From positions 2,666,001 to 2,730,000 of the forward strand of contig NZ_AP025144.1 in the NCBI RefSeq assembly GCF_019977755.1: a DNA stretch of 64,000 bases. Reading direction: 5' to 3'. Shown here one piece after another: positions 3,923 through 36,955 of this stretch. The notes below the pieces were generated by a model that was given only the letters and a program-made list of their open reading frames with translations, ran no database searches and had not been told where the DNA came from. Origin of the DNA: Vibrio penaeicida (GTDB taxonomy: Bacteria; Pseudomonadota; Gammaproteobacteria; Enterobacterales; Vibrionaceae). A program made the translations under genes and the position numbers. How positions within the stretch are numbered: position 1 is the first letter of the stretch; every line of letters starts with the position of its first letter.

Positions 3923-4773
3923 AGCCCACGATTCGGCGAGAGTGGGTGGATTACGTCAAGAATTGTCACTGTGTGAGTCTGCGTAGGGCTTTTCGTTTAG
4001 TCGGCATCAGTGACTCGGTCTATCGCTATCGACCAGATAAGCACGAGATACCCCTGTGATTGCCGCCTTGCAAGAAGCCGTTGAACGTTATCCTGCATAT
4101 GGTTTTGGCATGTTATTCAAAGTGCTTAAACGATGGGGGTATCGCTGGAACCACAAACGAGTGCATCGACTCTACTGCGAACTGAAGTTGAATAAACGCC
4201 GTCGAGGAAAGAAGCGATTACCAACAAGAGAGCCCGCTTCTTTATGTGTGCCAGAAACGTTCAACCAATGCTGGTCAATGGATTTCATGAGCGATTCACT
4301 GATGTGTGGCAGACGCTTCAGGACGTTCAATGTTATCGATGACTTTAACCGTGAAGCGCTGGCCATTGAAATTGACTTGAACCTTCCCGCCCAAAGAGTT
4401 GTCCGCGTATTGGAGCGTATCGTCGCTTGGCGAGGTTATCCGAGTCCCGAGTCAGTTACGTATGGACAATGGTCCAGAGTTTATCTCAACGACTTTAGCT
4501 GAATGGGCGGAGCAACATGACATACAACTCGAGTTCGTACAACCAGGTAAGCCCACACAAAACTCGTTTGTTGAAAGGTTCAACCGGACGTATAGAGATG
4601 AAATACTCAACATGCATGTGTTTAGAACGTTAAAAGAGGCACGTGAGCTAACGGAAAGCTGGGTTCAAGAATACAACGATGAACGTCCCCACAGCTCGCT
4701 GGATGACCTGACCCCATGGGAATATCTCACTAAGTTGAAATTGCCGGAAGAGTCTAATTTAGGGTGCCACTAA
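3909..4773 (+). pseudogene. IS3-family transposase OrfB (DDE), frameshifted
   Basis: The integrase-core part is readable only across three frames. The first carries IRREWVDYVKNCHCVSLRRAF. The second (from about 4050) carries the CWSMDFMSDSL...TFNVIDDFNRE segment with the first two Asp residues. The third (from about 4450) carries LRMDNGPEFIS...QPGKPTQNSFVERFN...ERPHSSLDDLTPWEY with the Glu. The second shift is explained by a 7-bp tandem duplication near 4440-4455 (CCGAGT CCCGAGT). The copy should not make an active transposase. Confidence 0.85.
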
Positions 4774-10317: not shown

Positions 10318-11118
10318 TTAAGCGGCTTTTAAGGCCTGATTTCGATATTCCGTCGGAGTCCGGCCTTTTAGTTTCACCTTGATGCGTTTCGTATTGTAAT
10401 ACTCGATGTATTCGTCAATATGTGCGATTAAGTCATCGGCATCTTCAAAGTGCTGATTATGGTACATTTCTGTTTTCAGTAAGGCAAAGAAGTTCTCTGC
10501 TACTGCGTTATCTAAGCAGTTTCCTTTTCGTGACATACTTTGAGTTAATCCCCGTTCAGCGAGAGTTTGCTGATACTTCCTATGCCTATATTGCCAACCT
10601 TGATCGCTATGCACTATGGGCTTAGCGTCTTTAGCTAAGGTCGCAACCGCCTCAGTCAGCATGTCAGTAACCAGAGGTAAACACGCATTTTTAGCAACCC
10701 TGTAAGCGACAACTTCTTGAGTAAACAGATCAACAATTGGTGATAGATACACCTTTTGTTGTTGAACTTTAAACTCAGTGACATCAGTTACCCATTTTTC
10801 ATCAGGCTTCGTTGCATTGAAGTCCCGTTCAAGTACATTTGGAGCGGTTGTCCCAGCATCTCCTTTGTAAGAGCTGTACCGCTTAGGTCTGACCGTTGAT
10901 TTCAAGCCTAGTAACCCCATTAGACGTTGAACTGTCTTATGGTTAAGCATGACGCCCTGTCTCCTTAACTCTAAATGAATACGACGATAGCCATATCTCC
11001 CTTTATGGTCATGATATATTTTCTCAATTAACCGTTTTTCATCTTGATAGCTTTCGATGGCGTTGTTCGACTGCGCATGATAATAGAAGCTACTTCTTGC
11101 TAACTTAAGAGCATGCAA
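10318..11118 (-). CDS. IS150-like transposase OrfB (DDE integrase core)
   Basis: A 266-residue catalytic part with an HTH_21-like segment (YHDHKGRYGYRRIHLELRRQG) and the rve integrase core. The DDE residues are visible as WVTDVTEF, SPIVDLFTQE/IVHSDQGWQY and MSRKGNCLDNAVAENFFALLK. The same frame is open upstream of the ATG back to OrfA, so the normal product is an OrfAB fusion made by -1 frameshifting. Confidence 0.93.
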   Translation of the reverse strand: MHALKLARSSFYYHAQSNNAIESYQDEKRLIEKIYHDHKGRYGYRRIHLELRRQGVMLNHKTVQRLMGLLGLKSTVRPKRYSSYKGDAGTTAPNVLERDFNATKPDEKWVTDVTEFKVQQQKVYLSPIVDLFTQEVVAYRVAKNACLPLVTDMLTEAVATLAKDAKPIVHSDQGWQYRHRKYQQTLAERGLTQSMSRKGNCLDNAVAENFFALLKTEMYHNQHFEDADDLIAHIDEYIEYYNTKRIKVKLKGRTPTEYRNQALKAA

Positions 11119-30862: not shown

Positions 30863-30981
30863 TTTTATTCCCTAACCTAAGTTTAACGGTATTGTCTTTT
30901 GCTTTAACTCTAGAGGCAATACATAGAGTGACTAAAAGTCCGATCTACGGCACATTTACCGCTAGATACTGACAACGTTAT

Positions 30982-30997
30982 CTGGTATCTTTTTCAG
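30982..30997. promoter_or_regulatory. Possible LexA (SOS) box upstream of uvrB
   Basis: CTG-N10-CAG with an AT-rich core (CTGGTATCTTTTTCAG) fits the gamma-proteobacterial LexA core and lies 120 bp before uvrB, an SOS gene in E. coli. The inner bases are not well conserved, so this is tentative. Confidence 0.4.
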
Positions 30998-31238
30998 CCC
31001 TGTACAAAAACCCCGCAATAAAACACCATTTTTCATCCACGAGTTTTCCCCAAAATTTTGCTAGATATGTCGATACTGTCATCTAAGTGCATTTTTATTC
31101 ACATCCACAACTTCAAGCATTAAAAACACTTAAACAACGTAAAATCAATTTGTTAGAGCATCTTCATTCCCTATTTATTGCTGGGAAACTCTTTCTAAAA
31201 CAGCCCAAAAAATAATTGTCAAAAATCAATTAACACAG

Positions 31239-31261
31239 TTATCCACAATTTTGGTGGATAA
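31239..31261. promoter_or_regulatory. Two inverted DnaA boxes in the uvrB upstream region
   Basis: TTATCCACA (31239-31247) is a perfect DnaA box. GGTGGATAA (31253-31261), read on the other strand, is TTATCCACC, a one-mismatch box. They face each other 5 bp apart. DnaA binding near the E. coli uvrB control region has been reported, so the position is suggestive. Confidence 0.5.
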
Positions 31262-31530
31262 GTTCGATTAGGCTTTGCCGTGCAAGGGTTATGTGATTGT
31301 AAAGATTTTTTTTAAGATTTTTTTCTCAAATCTTTCTCGTTGAGTGTTGACAGAAAATTGTGTAGTCAACCGATAAGTTTGAGAAAAGAATTCGCATAAA
31401 ATGAGCACTTCCGCACGAACAGCTCAGCCTAGAATGTATTTACGGGTAAATCTGAGCACACATAGGAATCTTTACCTTCTTGTCACTCCATATCGTTGGC
31501 TGACGTCAACCAAGCTGATACAGGAACTCT

Positions 31531-31794
31531 CTATCTCGTTTGTTCGGTGTAAAAAGATTGGTGGTCGTAATCCACCAGCACTTTGTGACGCGCAGCTTTG
31601 GTAGCAGCAATAAAGGCATATGCACTTTCCGCATCTAAATACCAATACCCGCTTTCTGGCTCGGTGGGTCGACCGTCTGGCGCTTTGAATTTGCCAGCAG
31701 GCAGCAGTTGACACCAACCGTCTTCAGACAGAGATAAATCTGCGGTCAGTATCGCCTGCGCGACTGGGTTTGAGGGTAAGGTCTGTGTTTTCAT
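31531..31794 (-). pseudogene. Relic of a Mu-like phage protease (I protein) N-terminus
   Basis: An 87-residue fragment matching the N-terminal part of Mu-like phage I/protease proteins: GWCQLLPAGKFKAPDGRPTE, YWYLDAESAYAFIAATKAARH, and VLVDYDHQSFYTE. The full protein is about 350 residues, so about three quarters are missing and the frame ends soon after the YDHQ motif. An ATG at 31794 has GGAGAG before it. No other phage gene is nearby, so this is a stranded relic or a captured fragment. Confidence 0.6.
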
Positions 31795-32482
31795 GCTCTC
31801 CATATTGAAGGGCGAGAGGGGCTAGGTGTGATTCACCTTAGTGTGTGTATTTAGGGAAAACCGTGAATAAGTGATTTGAAGGAAGTACTTTATGCTCAAA
31901 CTCGTTTGCGCCCCCGAAACCTGTTAGAGTATTTATTCGACTTTATTTTTATATCTAAATACGCCCTAGCATTTCTAATATTTGAATTCAGCTTGGAGCA
32001 TGCTGCATTAGTACCAATTACAAGTGCTACTGGTTTGACTTGTGGTTTTCAACAGGGATTTTATACGGTTTATTGGTTTTGAGTTAAATTTGAGTATGTG
32101 AAATGGTTTGCTTTGTCGACAGAGCGACCGCAAACATGTTCAAATTTTAAACTAATATTGAGCACTTAATTAAATTTAGTACCTATGTCTGTATTTTATG
32201 AATAGGTAATGCACATCAACTTTCTACTAAACAAGCGTCACACGAACAAAAACAATCATGCAATTGCTCTTGAGGGTGATTAATAAGTGATTGTTAATAA
32301 AGAAGATTATCGTTACCCATCCTTAGATAACATGCACTATTTAAAAGTGATAAAGCGCCTGCTCGTTTTTGTATGTTGGCAGAGTGCAAAATATGATGTA
32401 TATGCTTTGTTTTTTAGTGGCTTATGGTAGATTAGATGAAAGTTGCTCTACCGGAAAACGAGCCCGCCGGTTATTAAAAATG
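31795..32482. other. Intergenic region before the restriction-modification cassette
   Basis: About 690 bases, AT-rich, with no gene I can support. The right end contains a GC-rich patch (GAGCCCGCCGG, 32459-32470). It meets the presumed cassette boundary at the GTT of 32482-32484. Confidence 0.4.
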
Positions 32483-32532
32483 TTATACGCAAACCCTAAT
32501 TAACAACATTTACTTTATGAAAAGACGAATAC

Positions 32533-34380
32533 ATGCATTATAAAACGGAAAAATCTAAGACTAGACCTGACAAAGCTCCTGAGGAATTTACCATATACGC
32601 TGTCGGTGATGAAGAGTATATTTATTGCCCAATAAGAAGTCGTGTCTATAAAGTAAACAACAAACCTGAAGAGAAAGTTCGGCAGTGGTGGCTATACAGA
32701 TTAGTTGAGGTTTACGGCTATACATTTAACCAAATAGATGTAGAAGTAAAAGTTAAAGTAGGAGCTGCCGAAGCCAAAAAAGCTGCTGATATCGTTGTAT
32801 ATACAGATAGTAAAAAATCTACTGCAAGAGTTTTTATTGAAGTTAAGCGGCCAAAGAGAAATGATGGAATTGAACAGCTTAAAGTCTATATGAATGCTAC
32901 TGGCTGTAGAATTGGCTTATGGAGCAACGGTGAGCCTCCTCATGTCTATCTTTTGAGAATTGAGCCAAAAGAAGACCAAGAAGAAGCTACATGGAGAGAA
33001 TTACGAAATATTCCAAAGAAATCAGAATCGCTAACAGATGTTGACTCTCCCATAACTAGGAAAGAGTTGGAGCCTGTAAAGGATTTTCTTTCAATAATTA
33101 AAGAGTGTGAAAATTACATCAAAGCTCATGAAGGTGTTGATGCTTTTGATGAAATATTCAAACTTATTTTTGCGAAGCTTTTTGATGAAAGAGCTAACTT
33201 AAAAAATGACAACTCTTCTGCTCAGTTTAGAGTAGGTATTCTTGAAGCTCCAGAAGATGCAAAGACAAGAATAATTTCATTGTTCAAAAATGCATCTAAG
33301 AGATGGTCTGGCGTTTTTCTAGAAGGTGAAACTTTGAACTTGGGGGATGAGACATTAGCGTTTTGCGTCTCAGCCTTACAAAAGGTATACCTTTTGAAAT
33401 CTGATGCAGATGTTCTAGGTGCTGCATTTGAAATTATGATTAACCCAGGCATGAAGGGGGATAAAGGTCAGTACTTCACACCAAGACATGTTGTAGATAT
33501 GTGTGTTGAAATACTTAACCCTAAGGATGGTGAAACCATATTTGACCCTTCCTGCGGTAGTGGAGGCTTTCTAGTTTCTGCCATGAGTCATGTCTATAGG
33601 ACTATTGAGAAAGAACGAGATGATGAAAATGAAATAATAGAAAATAAAAAAGACTATGCTATTGAATGTGTTTATGGCATGGATTATGACCCTCTAATTG
33701 CAAAAGTCGCAAAGGCATACATGCTTATTTGGGGAGACGGACGGTCAAACATAGCCGTCTGTGATGGGCTAAATAATGTTAACTGAGATGATGAAACTAA
33801 ATCCAAATTTATTATCAAGTCTGATGGAAAATCAGAATTACGTAAATTTGATATCATTGCAACTAACCCTCCATTTGCAGGAGATATCTCATCAGATGAT
33901 ACCCTCTCAAAGTACCATATTGCTCATAAACCTCAAAAAAATGGTGGCAGAAAAAGAGTAAATAAATTATCCAGAGATAAGTTATTTATCGAGCGATGCG
34001 TTAATATGCTAAACCCACACGGGAGAATGGCTATTGTTTTACCTCGAGGTATTTTTAAAAATTATGGTGATGAATACATTCGTAGATATATTCTAAAGCA
34101 TTGTAAGATATTAGCCGTTGTTGGACTCGGTGGCGACATGTTTAAGCCTTTTACAAACACTAAAACTTGCGTTGGATTTTTCCAAAAACGAGAGACTCCT
34201 CTAGAAGATTTTTCTGACGTAGAACTAGATCCCGACCCAATTTTTGCACTCACTGAAAACCCAGGGAAGGATAAAACAGGAAATCTAATCGTTGATAAAG
34301 ATCATAATATACTATCCGATTTAGATGAAATATCTGCTTTTGTTCAAGCTAATATTCAGTTCACCAAGGCGGAGCAATAG
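32533..34380 (+). pseudogene. BcgI-A-like nuclease/N6-adenine methylase, one in-frame TGA
   Basis: The forward frame reads 616 codons with a single internal TGA at 33784-33786 (codon 418). The N-terminus has a PD-(D/E)XK nuclease fold of the HSDR_N_2 type (Asp86 in AADIVVY, Glu103-Val-Lys105 in FIEVKRP). Then comes an N6_Mtase domain with the SAM motif FDPSCGSGGF at 337-346 and, after the stop, the catalytic NPPF at 445-448 and LPRGIFKNYGDEYIRRY. A nuclease-methylase fusion with a separate specificity subunit is the layout of type IIB BcgI. The stop separates the SAM motif from the catalytic motif, so the product is inactive unless TGA is read through. The changed codon was probably TGG (Trp). 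Weak ribosome site. Confidence 0.8.
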
Positions 34381-34382
34381 AT

Positions 34383-35156
34383 ATGGCTAAGCTAGCAATT
34401 AGAAAAGTAACCGATACTTATCTTGATCTAAATGACCCTGAATCTGGTTTATATTCAAATAACCATATTTATGAACCTGAATTTCATCAAGAAGATTATG
34501 TTTCGGTATGTGATGAGCTGGAAGGAACTAAAGGTTCTTTTCAATTATCCACGAATGAAAAACTCGTAGGCGTTATCCATAGGGGAACCCAACCTAAATA
34601 CGCTGATGTTGAAACTGACCCGTCTTCACTTAATTGGTTCGGTATGACTGATGACTACGGCAAGCAAGTTAATGATAAAGGTGCAAATATTTGCGCTCTA
34701 AAATCAGTTTGTATTAGAGCTGGATATGTGGACCTTGAAACTGCTAGATCAGTTAGTAAAGAAACGTATGAGAAAACCAAGCATCGCGCCGGCATACAAA
34801 AGAATGACGTTCTTATAAATTCGACAGGTGATGGAACCATCGGTCGAGTCGCCGTCTATGATCATGACTTTCCTGCTGTTGTAGATGGACATATCACAAT
34901 CCTTCGATTTACTGATGAAGATTTGGCTTGGTATATAGGGGCATTTCTTATGTCCGAAATGGGTCAGAAACAAATTACTAGATATATTAATGGATCTAGT
35001 GGTCAAGTTGAAATATACCCTCAGGATATTGCTAGAATTTGGGTGAAGCCTGCAACTCAGAAAAAAATTGCAAAGATAGCCAGTGAGTTTCGAGATGCTT
35101 GTGGAAGTTATAATAAGTTTAAACAAGATATAAAGAAGGCATTGAGCAGCGTATAA
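34383..35156 (+). CDS. Specificity subunit (HsdS/BcgI-B-like)
   Basis: A 257-residue protein 2 nt after the methylase gene. The second half looks like a target-recognition domain followed by the conserved helix start: KNDVLINSTGDGTIGRVAVYD, VDGHITILRF, QITRYINGSSGQVEIYPQDIARIWVKPATQKKIAKIASEF. One recognition domain plus a single helix is about half a type I HsdS and would need to dimerise or serve a symmetric complex, as expected for BcgI-type B subunits. Its stop codon overlaps the start of the attC-like site. Confidence 0.75.
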   Translation: MAKLAIRKVTDTYLDLNDPESGLYSNNHIYEPEFHQEDYVSVCDELEGTKGSFQLSTNEKLVGVIHRGTQPKYADVETDPSSLNWFGMTDDYGKQVNDKGANICALKSVCIRAGYVDLETARSVSKETYEKTKHRAGIQKNDVLINSTGDGTIGRVAVYDHDFPAVVDGHITILRFTDEDLAWYIGAFLMSEMGQKQITRYINGSSGQVEIYPQDIARIWVKPATQKKIAKIASEFRDACGSYNKFKQDIKKALSSV

Positions 35157-35200
35157 CAAGGCGCTGCGCTCCTAATTTACCGGTGAGCGCGGCGTTACCC
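35151..35200 (+). repeat. attC-like recombination site
   Basis: GTATAACAAGGCG starts the site and GGCGTTACCC ends it, with an inner near-palindrome GCTGCGCTC...GAGCGCGGC and a short loop. The TAACAA and GCGTTA ends are characteristic of integron attC sites of about 50-60 bp. The last bases (ACCC) do not pair with GTAT because they belong to the flank. The pairing partner TTATAC is found at the other cassette end (32483-32488). Confidence 0.55.
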
Positions 35201-35268
35201 TTCCGAGTACCCCACGTTTAGTAGACACTTTACTAAGTTAGATCTAGGGTCTAATTGAGAGGTGATTT

Positions 35269-35577
35269 ATGACTAAACATCGTAATCCAGCGTACAGCGA
35301 AGAATTCCGCAAAGAAGCAGTGCATCTTGCCAGTCTTCCAGGTCGAACGGCGGTCTCGGTTGCTCAAGAGCTGGGCATCAGTGCTCAGCAAATACGGAAC
35401 TGGAAGCGTCAGTTCACACGTCTATCGGATAAACAGTTTAACACCCTAGACGGTGTTGATTATTCGAAGAAAGAGTCCGAAGAGCTTCGAGCGCTAAGGC
35501 GCGAGAACAAGCGACTCAAAGATGAAATGGAATTCCTAAAAAAGGTCTCGGCGTACTTCGCGAAGCAGCAAGAGTGA
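35269..35577 (+). CDS. IS3-family transposase OrfA
   Basis: A 102-residue OrfA with a helix-turn-helix (PGRTAVSVAQELGISAQQIRNWKRQF) and a C-terminal coiled coil (ESEELRALRRENKRLKDEMEFLKKVSAYFAKQQ), typical of IS3-group elements. A ribosome site (GAGAGGTG) precedes the ATG. The ORF is intact, but the element is broken. Confidence 0.85.
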   Translation: MTKHRNPAYSEEFRKEAVHLASLPGRTAVSVAQELGISAQQIRNWKRQFTRLSDKQFNTLDGVDYSKKESEELRALRRENKRLKDEMEFLKKVSAYFAKQQE

Positions 35578-35740
35578 AGTACGAGTTCATCGACAGTTAT
35601 GTTGAGAAATACAAAGTCACTCACATGTGTCACGCTCTTGATGTCTCACCTAGTGGCTTTTACAAGTGGCGTCATCGAGTGCCCAGTGAGCGTTCAAAGC
35701 GTCGAGAGCGCTTTGAACAATTGGTCATGTGTATGTACCT
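35574..35740 (+). pseudogene. IS3-family transposase OrfB, N-terminal fragment
   Basis: It starts MKYEFIDSYVEKYKVTHMCHAL and continues into SPSGFYKWRHRVPSERSKRR, the HTH-like N-terminus of IS3 OrfB. It is cut after about 55 codons by the inserted IS407-like copy, then reads a few IS codons to a stop at 35756. The catalytic core is absent. Confidence 0.85.
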
Positions 35741-36006
35741 TGTAATCATCCCCTAAACTAGGGACATTTAGAATTAGAGTTCTTCGGTTTAAACTAAACC
35801 AAATGGAGAACGCTGATGAAAAAGTCACGCTATACAGAAACGCAAATCGTCAAGATTCTGAAAGAAGTTGAAACTGGCAGGTTGGTCAAACAGGTCTGCC
35901 GAGAGTATGGCATCTCAGATGCCACTTACTACAACTGGAAGTCCAAGTACGGCGGCATGGAAGCCTCAGACGTGAAGCGACTGAAGGAGCTTGAGGATGA
36001 AAACCG
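35741..36006 (+). mobile_element. IS407-like element, second copy, 5' fragment only
   Basis: The first about 266 bp match the element at 3581-4789 almost base for base (the same TGTAATCATCCCC end and OrfA start at 35816, with only a few substitutions). Identity ends within OrfA after GAGGATGAAAACC, where toxin sequence begins. No right end follows, so a deletion has joined the IS directly to the toxin gene. Confidence 0.85.
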
Positions 36007-36383
36007 ACTCCATTGCAGAGCCGCAGCCATCTCCAAACCATGCAGCACATCATATCGTTATGGGTAATGGTCGTGTTAAGGCAATGATTAACGCTCGCTT
36101 GCAGATGTTCATGTATGGGATAGGTATCAACGACTCTATGAATGGTATTTGGCTACCACGTTCGACCACTTACAAGGGACGTTACACTACACCAAAAGCG
36201 CCGACTCACTCGCGCATACATGGCAATAACTATCAGAGGTGAGTTGGAAAATTGGCTGATATTCGCAACAATGAAGGCGCATTTAGAGCCAGACTTGTCA
36301 GAATTAAATCTCAGCTAAAAGATGGCTCTCACCCTTCCCAAATTCTTATGAAGAAAGATCCATCTTGGAAACCAGCTCAATGA
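36007..36383 (+). pseudogene. AHH-family nuclease toxin tip, 5'-truncated with an in-frame TGA
   Basis: The frame reads the C-terminal toxin domain of a polymorphic toxin. It has NHAAHHIV (the AHH signature of this HNH/EndoVII-fold nuclease), MINARLQMFMYGIGINDSMNGIWLP, and HSRIHGNNYQR. After a TGA at 36240-36242 the same frame continues VGKLADIRNNEGAFRARLVR...PSWKPAQ and stops at 36383. In other members a Trp or aromatic residue fits the TGA position. The delivery N-terminus was removed by the IS407-like fragment. It is followed, with ATGA overlap, by its probable immunity gene. Confidence 0.75.
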
Positions 36384-36955
36384 GTATATATCAGATAAGA
36401 AACATCAATCGTCACTTCAAAGTTCTCGAACATGACCCTTTTCAACGGGCCATCGATGCGGGTGACGATGCTCTATTGGATAGGCTCTACAGTGAACCCA
36501 TAGCCTCAAAAGGGTTGTCCGATGTTTGGGTAGAAGAGAGTGTCAAATTCACAGCTCACGACAATACGTCTATAAAAATTCCAGATATATCTGTTTGGGG
36601 TTCTTTCCTAGTACTAACGCAACGAGCGGTAGAAGTGTTAAAGCCATATATCGGCTCTGATGGCGAGCTCTTACCTATCGTGATTGATGATGAAAAGTTT
36701 CAGGCTTTCAATGTCATGAGTTTTGGTGAGGAAGACAAAGCCAGTACGAAGCACGAATACATCGATGGGTATCCAGCTGGCTTGGAATCTCTCAACTTCA
36801 TCGAGTCTAGTGTTACTGATAAGCACGTTTTCAAGTCTTTAATGCAAGGGGGTAACTTGTTGTATTGCGATGAGAAGCTAAAGGCGTTATGTAATAAGAA
36901 TGATTTACGCGGTGTGTATTTCGACTTGGATCTATTGGATGTTTTCGATTACTAA
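36380..36955 (+). CDS. Probable immunity protein (Imm11/DUF1629-like)
   Basis: A 191-residue protein beginning MSIYQIRNINRHFKVLEHD, with its ATG overlapping the toxin stop (ATGA). A TTG 15 nt upstream is less likely. The layout, VWGSFLVLTQRAVEVLKPYIGSDGELLPI in the middle and NLLYCDEKLKALCNKNDLRGVYFDLD near the end, resembles the imm11 family that neutralises AHH-type toxins. It is intact although the toxin is broken, so it may protect against the same toxin from neighbours. Confidence 0.65.
   Translation: MSIYQIRNINRHFKVLEHDPFQRAIDAGDDALLDRLYSEPIASKGLSDVWVEESVKFTAHDNTSIKIPDISVWGSFLVLTQRAVEVLKPYIGSDGELLPIVIDDEKFQAFNVMSFGEEDKASTKHEYIDGYPAGLESLNFIESSVTDKHVFKSLMQGGNLLYCDEKLKALCNKNDLRGVYFDLDLLDVFDY

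Follow-up and report, generated by a model that had tools for sequence, protein, structure and literature searches.

A restriction-modification gene cassette at a putative class-2-type attI site, with no adjacent integrase gene, in Vibrio penaeicida

Cassette Structure and attC Site

The sequence analyzed here, called the window, was a 64,000-nucleotide stretch of Vibrio penaeicida (contig NZ_AP025144.1, positions 2,666,001 to 2,730,000, forward strand), in which a preliminary description had placed a BcgI-like restriction-modification (R-M) system on an integron cassette lying outside an integron. Coordinates refer to the window unless a contig is named; G, C and L numbers denote genomes, contigs and loci. 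The cassette itself was confirmed. A gene cassette of 2,712 bp (32483..35194, + strand) was bounded by an attI core on the left and an attC site on the right; it opened with TTATAC at 32483 and closed with the G of position 35194. Its first bases at 32483 read TTATACGC, and its other end was the GTATAAC..GGCG of 35151-35194. The core GTTATAC occupied 32482..32488 (+ strand), and crossover would have taken place between 32482 and 32483, the point where 21 aligned copies part ways. The attC site (35151..35200, + strand) consisted of R'' GTATAAC, L'' GGCGCT, a 20-nt loop, L' AGCGC and R' GTTACCC, and was short, its inner part being the 20-nt loop. The claim that the cassette ends form an attC-like site with perfectly complementary 7-bp outer arms was exact, as GTTATAC (32482-32488) and GTATAAC (35151-35157) complement each other without a mismatch, and so was the reported overlap of the last gene with attC, since the TAA stop of the specificity (S) gene (35154-35156) falls within R''.

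A covariance model, used in place of that of IntegronFinder, was derived from 13 attC sites at Vibrio loci in other genomes, and its 10-pair structure was set by hand after the site in the window had been seen. In a 10-kb search, 35151-35200 received 24.2 bits (E 6.3e-4) with 10 of 10 pairs formed, and the runner-up match had 11.4 bits. Among 3000 random sequences with the neighbour frequencies of the 4 kb downstream of the core, none contained the complete attC arrangement (R'', L'', loop, L', GTT) and 86 contained the 9-mer GTATAACAA; a scan of the actual 4 kb for this arrangement recovered the attC at 35151. When any core was allowed, the whole window held two such sites on the + strand (14063 and 35151) and none on the - strand. 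The circularised junction folded as DNA at -11.9 kcal/mol (z -2.7). Together, these results support 32483-35194 as an integron gene cassette recombined at a G|TT core, the excision and insertion of which would be carried out by the integrase IntI.

The attI Site and Its Dispersal

The cassette was directly preceded by a class-2-type attI site (32274..32482, + strand), which nhmmer detected (E 8.8e-46) by means of a profile built from 20 copies, the window not among them. With 32180-32481 as query, 29 of 196 Vibrio genomes were matched, and many of the matches started at about 32280 or 32321 and ended at the last base before the core. In an alignment of 21 copies, the last 30 bases were strongly conserved (..CCTGTTATTAAGAAT) and were followed by G|TTA and then by unrelated sequence, and some copies had the start of the integrase gene (intI) in reverse orientation upstream, with a CTGT-N8-ACAG box ahead of attI. 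The conserved end, the divergence at the core, the upstream intI start and the box identify the left flank as attI.

A pattern for the last 30 attI bases (up to 3 mismatches) gave 91 matches, counting that of the window itself, in 35 of 196 Vibrio genomes, and 0 matches in a reversed control. Several genomes held many copies (11 in G202, 9 in G207, and 5 each in G173, G200, G229 and G256). The description of the cassette as lying outside an integron needs revision as worded: the cassette sits at a class-2-type attI, without intI in the window, and sites of this type occur at dispersed places in Vibrio. Across one genome each of 84,980 species, an exact 28-base attI pattern was found in 29 stretches, 27 of them from Vibrio and one each from Enterovibrio and Photobacterium. 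A search of 50,697 phage records for attI yielded no match at E 1e-5, and viral contigs gave one exact match to a short attI pattern. The sequence left of the unit (30900-31890) matched relatives over 116 bases at most, and none of them had the same flank.

The sample of loci comprised 90 of the 91 pattern places (all but G255:C214), L149, and the region of a further intI (L182). These made up 80 loci, and in them and the window the 20-copy profile detected 93 attI sites, its seed copies included; two G300 places and L182 fell short of E 1e-6 and lie outside these 93 copies. The exact CTGT-N8-ACAG box, a LexA-type box reading CTGTTTTTTTATACAG in L104, was kept in 24 of 92 copies, compared to a mean of 0.3 in composition shuffles. 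By alignment, the window has a probable remnant of this box of the intI promoter at 32053..32068 (CAGG-N8-ACGG versus CTGT-N8-ACAG).

The cargo of these sites was diverse. The 400-bp segments downstream of the 93 copies fell into 91 clusters; almost every copy had its own cassette. Among the 84 copies that have GTT cores, 58 showed an exact complement of the 7-mer core within 4 kb downstream; when cores were swapped between copies, this number averaged 21.3 (sd 3.5, maximum 30). This complement starts an attC-like arm pair in 44 copies including the window, as judged by a lenient score under which some of the 44 are poor. The intI-bearing copies on the V. gangliei plasmid pVgang (L103, L104, L264) hold resistance cassettes, and L264 is annotated with qnrVC7 and a fos gene.

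Integrase and Relationship to Class 2 Integrons

The integrase gene was mostly absent. When up to 2.2 kb upstream of the 93 copies were searched by tblastn with the V. gangliei IntI, a whole protein was found at 7 copies, a match of 108 residues at 1, matches of 25-52 residues at 7, and nothing at 78, the last group including all 7 copies for which the retrieved stretch reached less than 1.4 kb upstream. No IntI homology was present within 2.2 kb upstream of the attI in the window, where a class 2-type integron would carry intI in cis. Among the 35 attI genomes, 23 had no IntI match at E 1e-40, which was partly inferred from absence among the matches listed. The sole IntI of the host above the family cut-off was of superintegron type and located elsewhere (G000:C1:1465107); it shared 60-67% identity with six other Vibrio IntI and 41-42% with the mobile type found with the dispersed attI sites. 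The host intI and the narrow-pattern attC sites (1593747-1607041) were about 128 kb apart.

Mobile IntI from V. gangliei and V. chagasii copies were 99.4% identical to each other, 88% identical to an integrase on a V. halioticoli plasmid, 62.5% to two Shewanella plasmid integrases, 62% to IntI2, and 41-45% to seven other Vibrio IntI. The attI profile matched the V. halioticoli site at E 1.2e-55 and placed attI2 of the class 2 integron correctly, at a weak E of 0.002 in a small search space. In the surroundings of 31 further IntI genes (the 30 best matches and that of the host), taken to be of superintegron type, it gave nothing better than E 3.7. By sequence, the attI in the window belongs to the class-2 (IntI2-like) type and differs from the superintegron attI regions that were compared. 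It shares with attI2 the motif AAAACGAGC, a terminal TA-rich stretch and AATG|TT. The dispersed element differs from the class 2 integron (Tn7, IntI2, attI2) in having its own left end (LE) and right end (RE), in occurring in several copies per genome, and in mostly lacking intI. Its intI-bearing copies also have an AT-rich LexA box, whereas the present-day class 2 box is C/G-rich and unbound by LexA, as reported in Jove et al., 2017 (PMC5559693), where an SOS-controlled ancestor of class 2 integrons was proposed.

Unit Ends and Candidate Recombinases

Three V. gangliei copies had in common 1.39-1.51 kb ending at attI and then continued into different cassettes. In these copies the LE starts TGCCCCAAA, and an RE, GTTACTTTYCCATACTTC.., follows the last attC in two of the three. 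The ends were then traced elsewhere with profiles (LE, 9 seeds, matches to E 0.5; RE, 7 seeds, matches to E 1e-3), and were found to be partially conserved, with an LE for 38 of the 93 copies, an RE for 30 and both for 20. An LE at E 1e-3 was combined with an RE within 4 kb of the core in 16 copies, and RE within this distance made up 25 of the 30. The distance from LE to core was no more than 440 bp (268-431 bp) in 30 of 38 copies, and 1,394-1,400 bp in six copies with intI. Both ends can be written in the loose form AACTC-N5-TG|YCC-N6-GAGTT.

The units have palindromic cores but, in 10 copies inspected by eye, no constant direct repeat, unlike transposons and miniature inverted-repeat transposable elements, whose terminal inverted repeats are flanked by a target duplication of fixed length. 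When the two flanks were joined at TG|YCC, a perfect 11-bp palindrome resulted in 1 of 10 pairs (L128), and no empty site across a join was apparent among the matches listed for 8 joined pairs. Three left flanks recurred in many genomes, namely those of L118, where the unit follows an IS110-type gene, of L121, where it follows a glmS-like gene, and of L147, which has a 209-aa Phage_integrase gene; their longer matches ended within about 20 bases of the join. As recurrence is expected for mobile or core genes, this shows just that other DNA follows at these flanks. The unit at L121 (G200:C1:2335001-2349000) stands directly after the glmS-like gene, which encodes SIS domains; Tn7 inserts next to glmS.

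The gene for the 209-aa tyrosine recombinase (L249:1551-2180, L147, L250) was itself part of a dispersed unit of about 760 bp, which starts no more than about 10 bases from a TG|YCC core and stops at another. It occurred in 80 of 196 Vibrio genomes, with internal stop codons in many copies. The protein is presumably FimB-like; set beside the FimB/FimE-type small tyrosine recombinases, its Vibrio units are bounded by the TG|YCC core of the attI units. It is a candidate mover of the attI units, having the same end core, yet did not co-occur with them (14 of 35 genomes with attI units versus 66 of 161 without).

A second, candidate mover is the phage-type integrase (Int_N and Phage_integrase domains) that adjoins two V. 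chagasii units. The 1.35 kb common to both loci lies beside the intI unit, not within it, and the stretch starts within a few bases of an LE-like core at both (L237, at about 13,125; L236, at about 225).

Two further observations concern RE-like sequences. In another V. chagasii locus (L127, G132:C3:316501-331500), RE-like ends at 88-158, 4619-4692 and 10782-10852 lead into a linker repeat some 45 bases long and sit between single genes (LysE, HAD, Sel1 and GNAT types) without attI; they perhaps represent a wider family of tandem mobile units. In one of the V. gangliei plasmid copies (L103, 14811 onward), the RE is directly followed by a sequence starting GTGCG.., which we take to resemble the 5' end of a group II intron.

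Phylogeny of attI Copies

A tree was built from the 200 bases upstream of the core in the 93 attI copies and rooted at the midpoint; 34 of its 89 inner branches were unresolved and the bootstrap was unsettled. One side of a supported branch (96/96) held 46 copies from 21 genomes with zero whole intI, while all seven intI copies fell on the other side; three label changes were needed, compared to a mean of 6.9 after shuffling. Three V. ostreicida places (L110, L111, L112) had nearly identical attI and different cassettes. The attI in the window paired with L149 of G215 (support 100/98) at 78% identity. The tree favours multiplication without intI over one-by-one loss, short of proof.

Interpretation and Alternative Explanations

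The segment at 32483-35194 is probably a cassette in the class-2-type attI of an intI-less miniature integron that is dispersed in Vibrionaceae. The common ends suggest that such miniature, integrase-less integrons moved as units, each of which would consist of LE, LexA-type box, attI, one or few cassettes and RE. Insertion of the cassette might have been performed by an IntI2-like integrase absent here, or by the superintegron-type integrase of the host acting in trans. The unit as a whole could move as a block through its palindromic AACTC-N5-TG|YCC ends, on which a site-specific recombinase would act. In class 2 integrons the cassette promoters are located inside attI2 (PMC8876359), and by analogy a promoter inside attI might allow a unit without intI to express its cargo. 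A broader proposal, for which we see even chances, is that Vibrionaceae harbor a family of miniature integrons in which intI-less blocks multiply within genomes through a recombinase acting in trans at the palindromic ends, spreading cassettes that are probably expressed outside arrays, and in which the intI-bearing parent with its AT-rich LexA box could be the ancestor under SOS control that has been proposed for class 2 integrons.

Several results weigh against these views. An exact complement of the core was absent within 4 kb in 26 of 84 copies. The profiles detected no LE for 55 and no RE for 63 of the 93 copies. Five of the 30 RE are located over 4 kb from the core and perhaps belong to other units, and 3 of the 38 LE matches are weaker than E 1e-3 (35 reach it). 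No constant direct repeat was seen by eye at the unit ends in 10 end pairs. The 209-aa recombinase, besides failing to co-occur with the units, had no match in the host at E 1e-30. The RE of the window copy is represented by 11 bases, and a consensus scan of its attI on the + strand before the gene revealed no promoter. The nearest Shewanella integron attI reached just E 0.026 over 22 bases. Lastly, a cassette-free unit, with attI joined to RE, was not found in 196 genomes (pattern with up to 3 mismatches); free docking sites would predict empty units, and their absence favours units that move together with their cassette.

The most serious competitor is plain decay, in which a whole class-2-like integron lost intI locally, the intI-less copies are independent deletions, and there is no mobile miniature family. 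The intI fragments at 8 of the 93 copies, the clearly decayed state of the window copy and the lack of empty copies are in line with such a history, as are the three intI label changes needed by a tree with many unsupported forks. Independent deletions would have to account, however, for the similar short distance between LE and core in 30 of 38 copies, for genomes with 5-11 copies and without an IntI match at E 1e-40, for the 46 copies in 21 genomes without whole intI on one side of a supported branch, and for near-identical copies at several places of one genome. We consider plain decay unlikely, but not so unlikely as to be set aside lightly.

Two other origins were considered for the cassette of the presumed miniature integron. 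Off-target integration, in which a cassette enters an ordinary chromosomal G|TT (attG) outside any integron, was implied by the preliminary description; attG integration has been described by others (PMC12444791, PMC12901181), and would suit a cassette with no intI within 2.2 kb. An attG is by definition neither attI nor attC, whereas the left flank here is a conserved attI and similarity across copies stops at the core; an ordinary attG insertion was rejected on account of this flank, and the explanation is highly improbable. The cassette could also be a piece broken off the chromosomal integron of the host, which has a superintegron-type intI and attC sites, and whose array contains a 97% identical copy of the insertion sequence (IS) at 35205. 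The type of attI contradicts such an origin, as the profile had no match near the host intI or 30 other IntI genes, and the methylase gene of the cassette had no second match in the host genome; as a source of the cassette, a superintegron fragment is scarcely credible. As to the suggested search for a superintegron with the same cassette elsewhere in the genome, a superintegron-type intI was present at another locus, and no second match to the methylase was found.

Comparison with Known Systems

The units resemble in part the Delta-attI-type cassettes of class 1 and 2 integrons (PMC12901181), in that attI is found away from its usual place and beside cassettes. A Delta-attI-type cassette, however, lies within an array and bears attI instead of attC at its 3' end, whereas the attI in the window precedes a cassette with attC, and the loci are dispersed. 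The likeness to CALIN (attC clusters lacking integrase) lies in cassettes without intI; CALIN are called by their attC sites, two or more by default according to PMC12444791, whereas the window has one attC and its own attI. Detection of attI by IntegronFinder is limited to class 1, as stated in PMC9024848. Since standard integron searches seek intI or attC clusters, they can miss a lone cassette docked at an orphan attI, and dozens of such cassettes were found here in Vibrio. No description of dispersed class-2-type attI sites in Vibrio was found in a limited literature search covering portions of PMC12901181, PMC9892861, PMC12444791, PMC8191803, PMC9024848, PMC8876359 and PMC5559693. Units with orphan attI would be a second route, beside superintegrons, for placing cassettes around the chromosome. 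The intI-bearing copies would provide a natural relative of the class 2 integrase, by which the origin of class 2 integrons becomes directly testable.

Restriction-Modification Cargo

The cassette carried a nuclease-methylase gene and an S gene, all on the + strand. The first part of the nuclease-methylase gene (32533..33786) is an open reading frame ending at an in-frame TGA, with matches to HSDR_N_2 (E 9.9e-21) and N6_Mtase (E 1.5e-18); the same frame continues past the TGA (33787..34380) with the NPPF motif and the remaining methylase (N6_Mtase, E 2.4e-17). The frame 32533-34380 is interrupted by this single TGA at 33784, ahead of NPPF, which may be either a true mutation or a sequence error, and the interruption makes activity doubtful. 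The S gene (34383..35156) encodes a half-size specificity subunit of 257 aa, which has a single Methylase_S match (E 7e-5) and aligns with part of the profiles of type I S families.

The best solved-structure match of the nuclease-methylase was BsaXI RM (E 1.3e-32), a type IIB enzyme, and its best families in PADLOC were type I and type II methylases. Its likeness to MADS2 in NCBIfam was far below the cut-off (353 versus 720 bits). The domain content supports the BcgI-like layout of the preliminary description, with HSDR_N_2 and N6_Mtase in one frame and a separate S gene, the predicted system being compromised by the broken frame. Type IIB systems (BcgI, BsaXI) combine nuclease and N6-methylase in one frame with a separate S gene, a layout that the cassette resembles at the level of domains, and an active system of this type would cut on both sides of its site; the cassette differs from them in its half-size S and interrupted methylase.

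Relatives of the methylase were rare. At E 1e-30, 3 of 329 Vibrionaceae genomes were matched, namely the host, which showed no second match, and two others (37% and 32% identity). Among 72,556 plasmids, a cut-off of E 1e-40 gave 21 records; none of these reached 60% identity, and the highest value among the matches listed was 38.8%. One viral contig (L239) carries a relative with 64% identity, around which our own scans found neither attC nor attI. The notion that these R-M genes are exclusive to integrons was rejected on account of this relative, which, together with the plasmid matches, indicates that they are not an integron speciality.

Decay of the Window Copy and Neighboring Features

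A decayed LE was located at 31899..31980 (+ strand), where AACTCGTTTG is followed by CGCCCCCGAAACCTGTTAGAG (LE profile, E 4.4e-4), 578 bp before the core. A possible start of the RE lies at 35194..35204 (+ strand), where GTTACCCTTCC and the conserved RE start GTTACTTTTCC are identical at 9 of 11 positions; the RE profile had no match there at E 1e-3. Owing to this resemblance, the empty site AAAAATG|TTACCC proposed earlier fits an RE start, but it was represented by no empty unit in the 196 genomes and by no relative with the same flank. Beyond this point is a truncated, transposase-bearing IS (35205..35733, + strand), IS3-type by eye and with HTH_Tnp_1, whose left edge is uncertain by a few bases; over 543 bp (35191-35733) it is 97% identical to a longer copy in the attC array of the host (G000:C1:1594581), so that the right flank was rejected as plain host DNA. 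A second IS fragment with HTH_Tnp_1 (35740..36011, + strand) is 97% identical over 272 bp to a sequence at about 1607.9 kb of G000:C1. On these sequence features, the window holds an old, decayed copy, with degenerate LE and LexA box, an RE broken by the IS, an interrupted methylase and a good attI.

Two neighboring features were also recorded. To the left of the unit, 31531-31803 (- strand) is a short fragment of a Mu-like prophage I protein, and after the IS fragments, 36365-36955 is a gene with a weak match to the Imm11 immunity protein.

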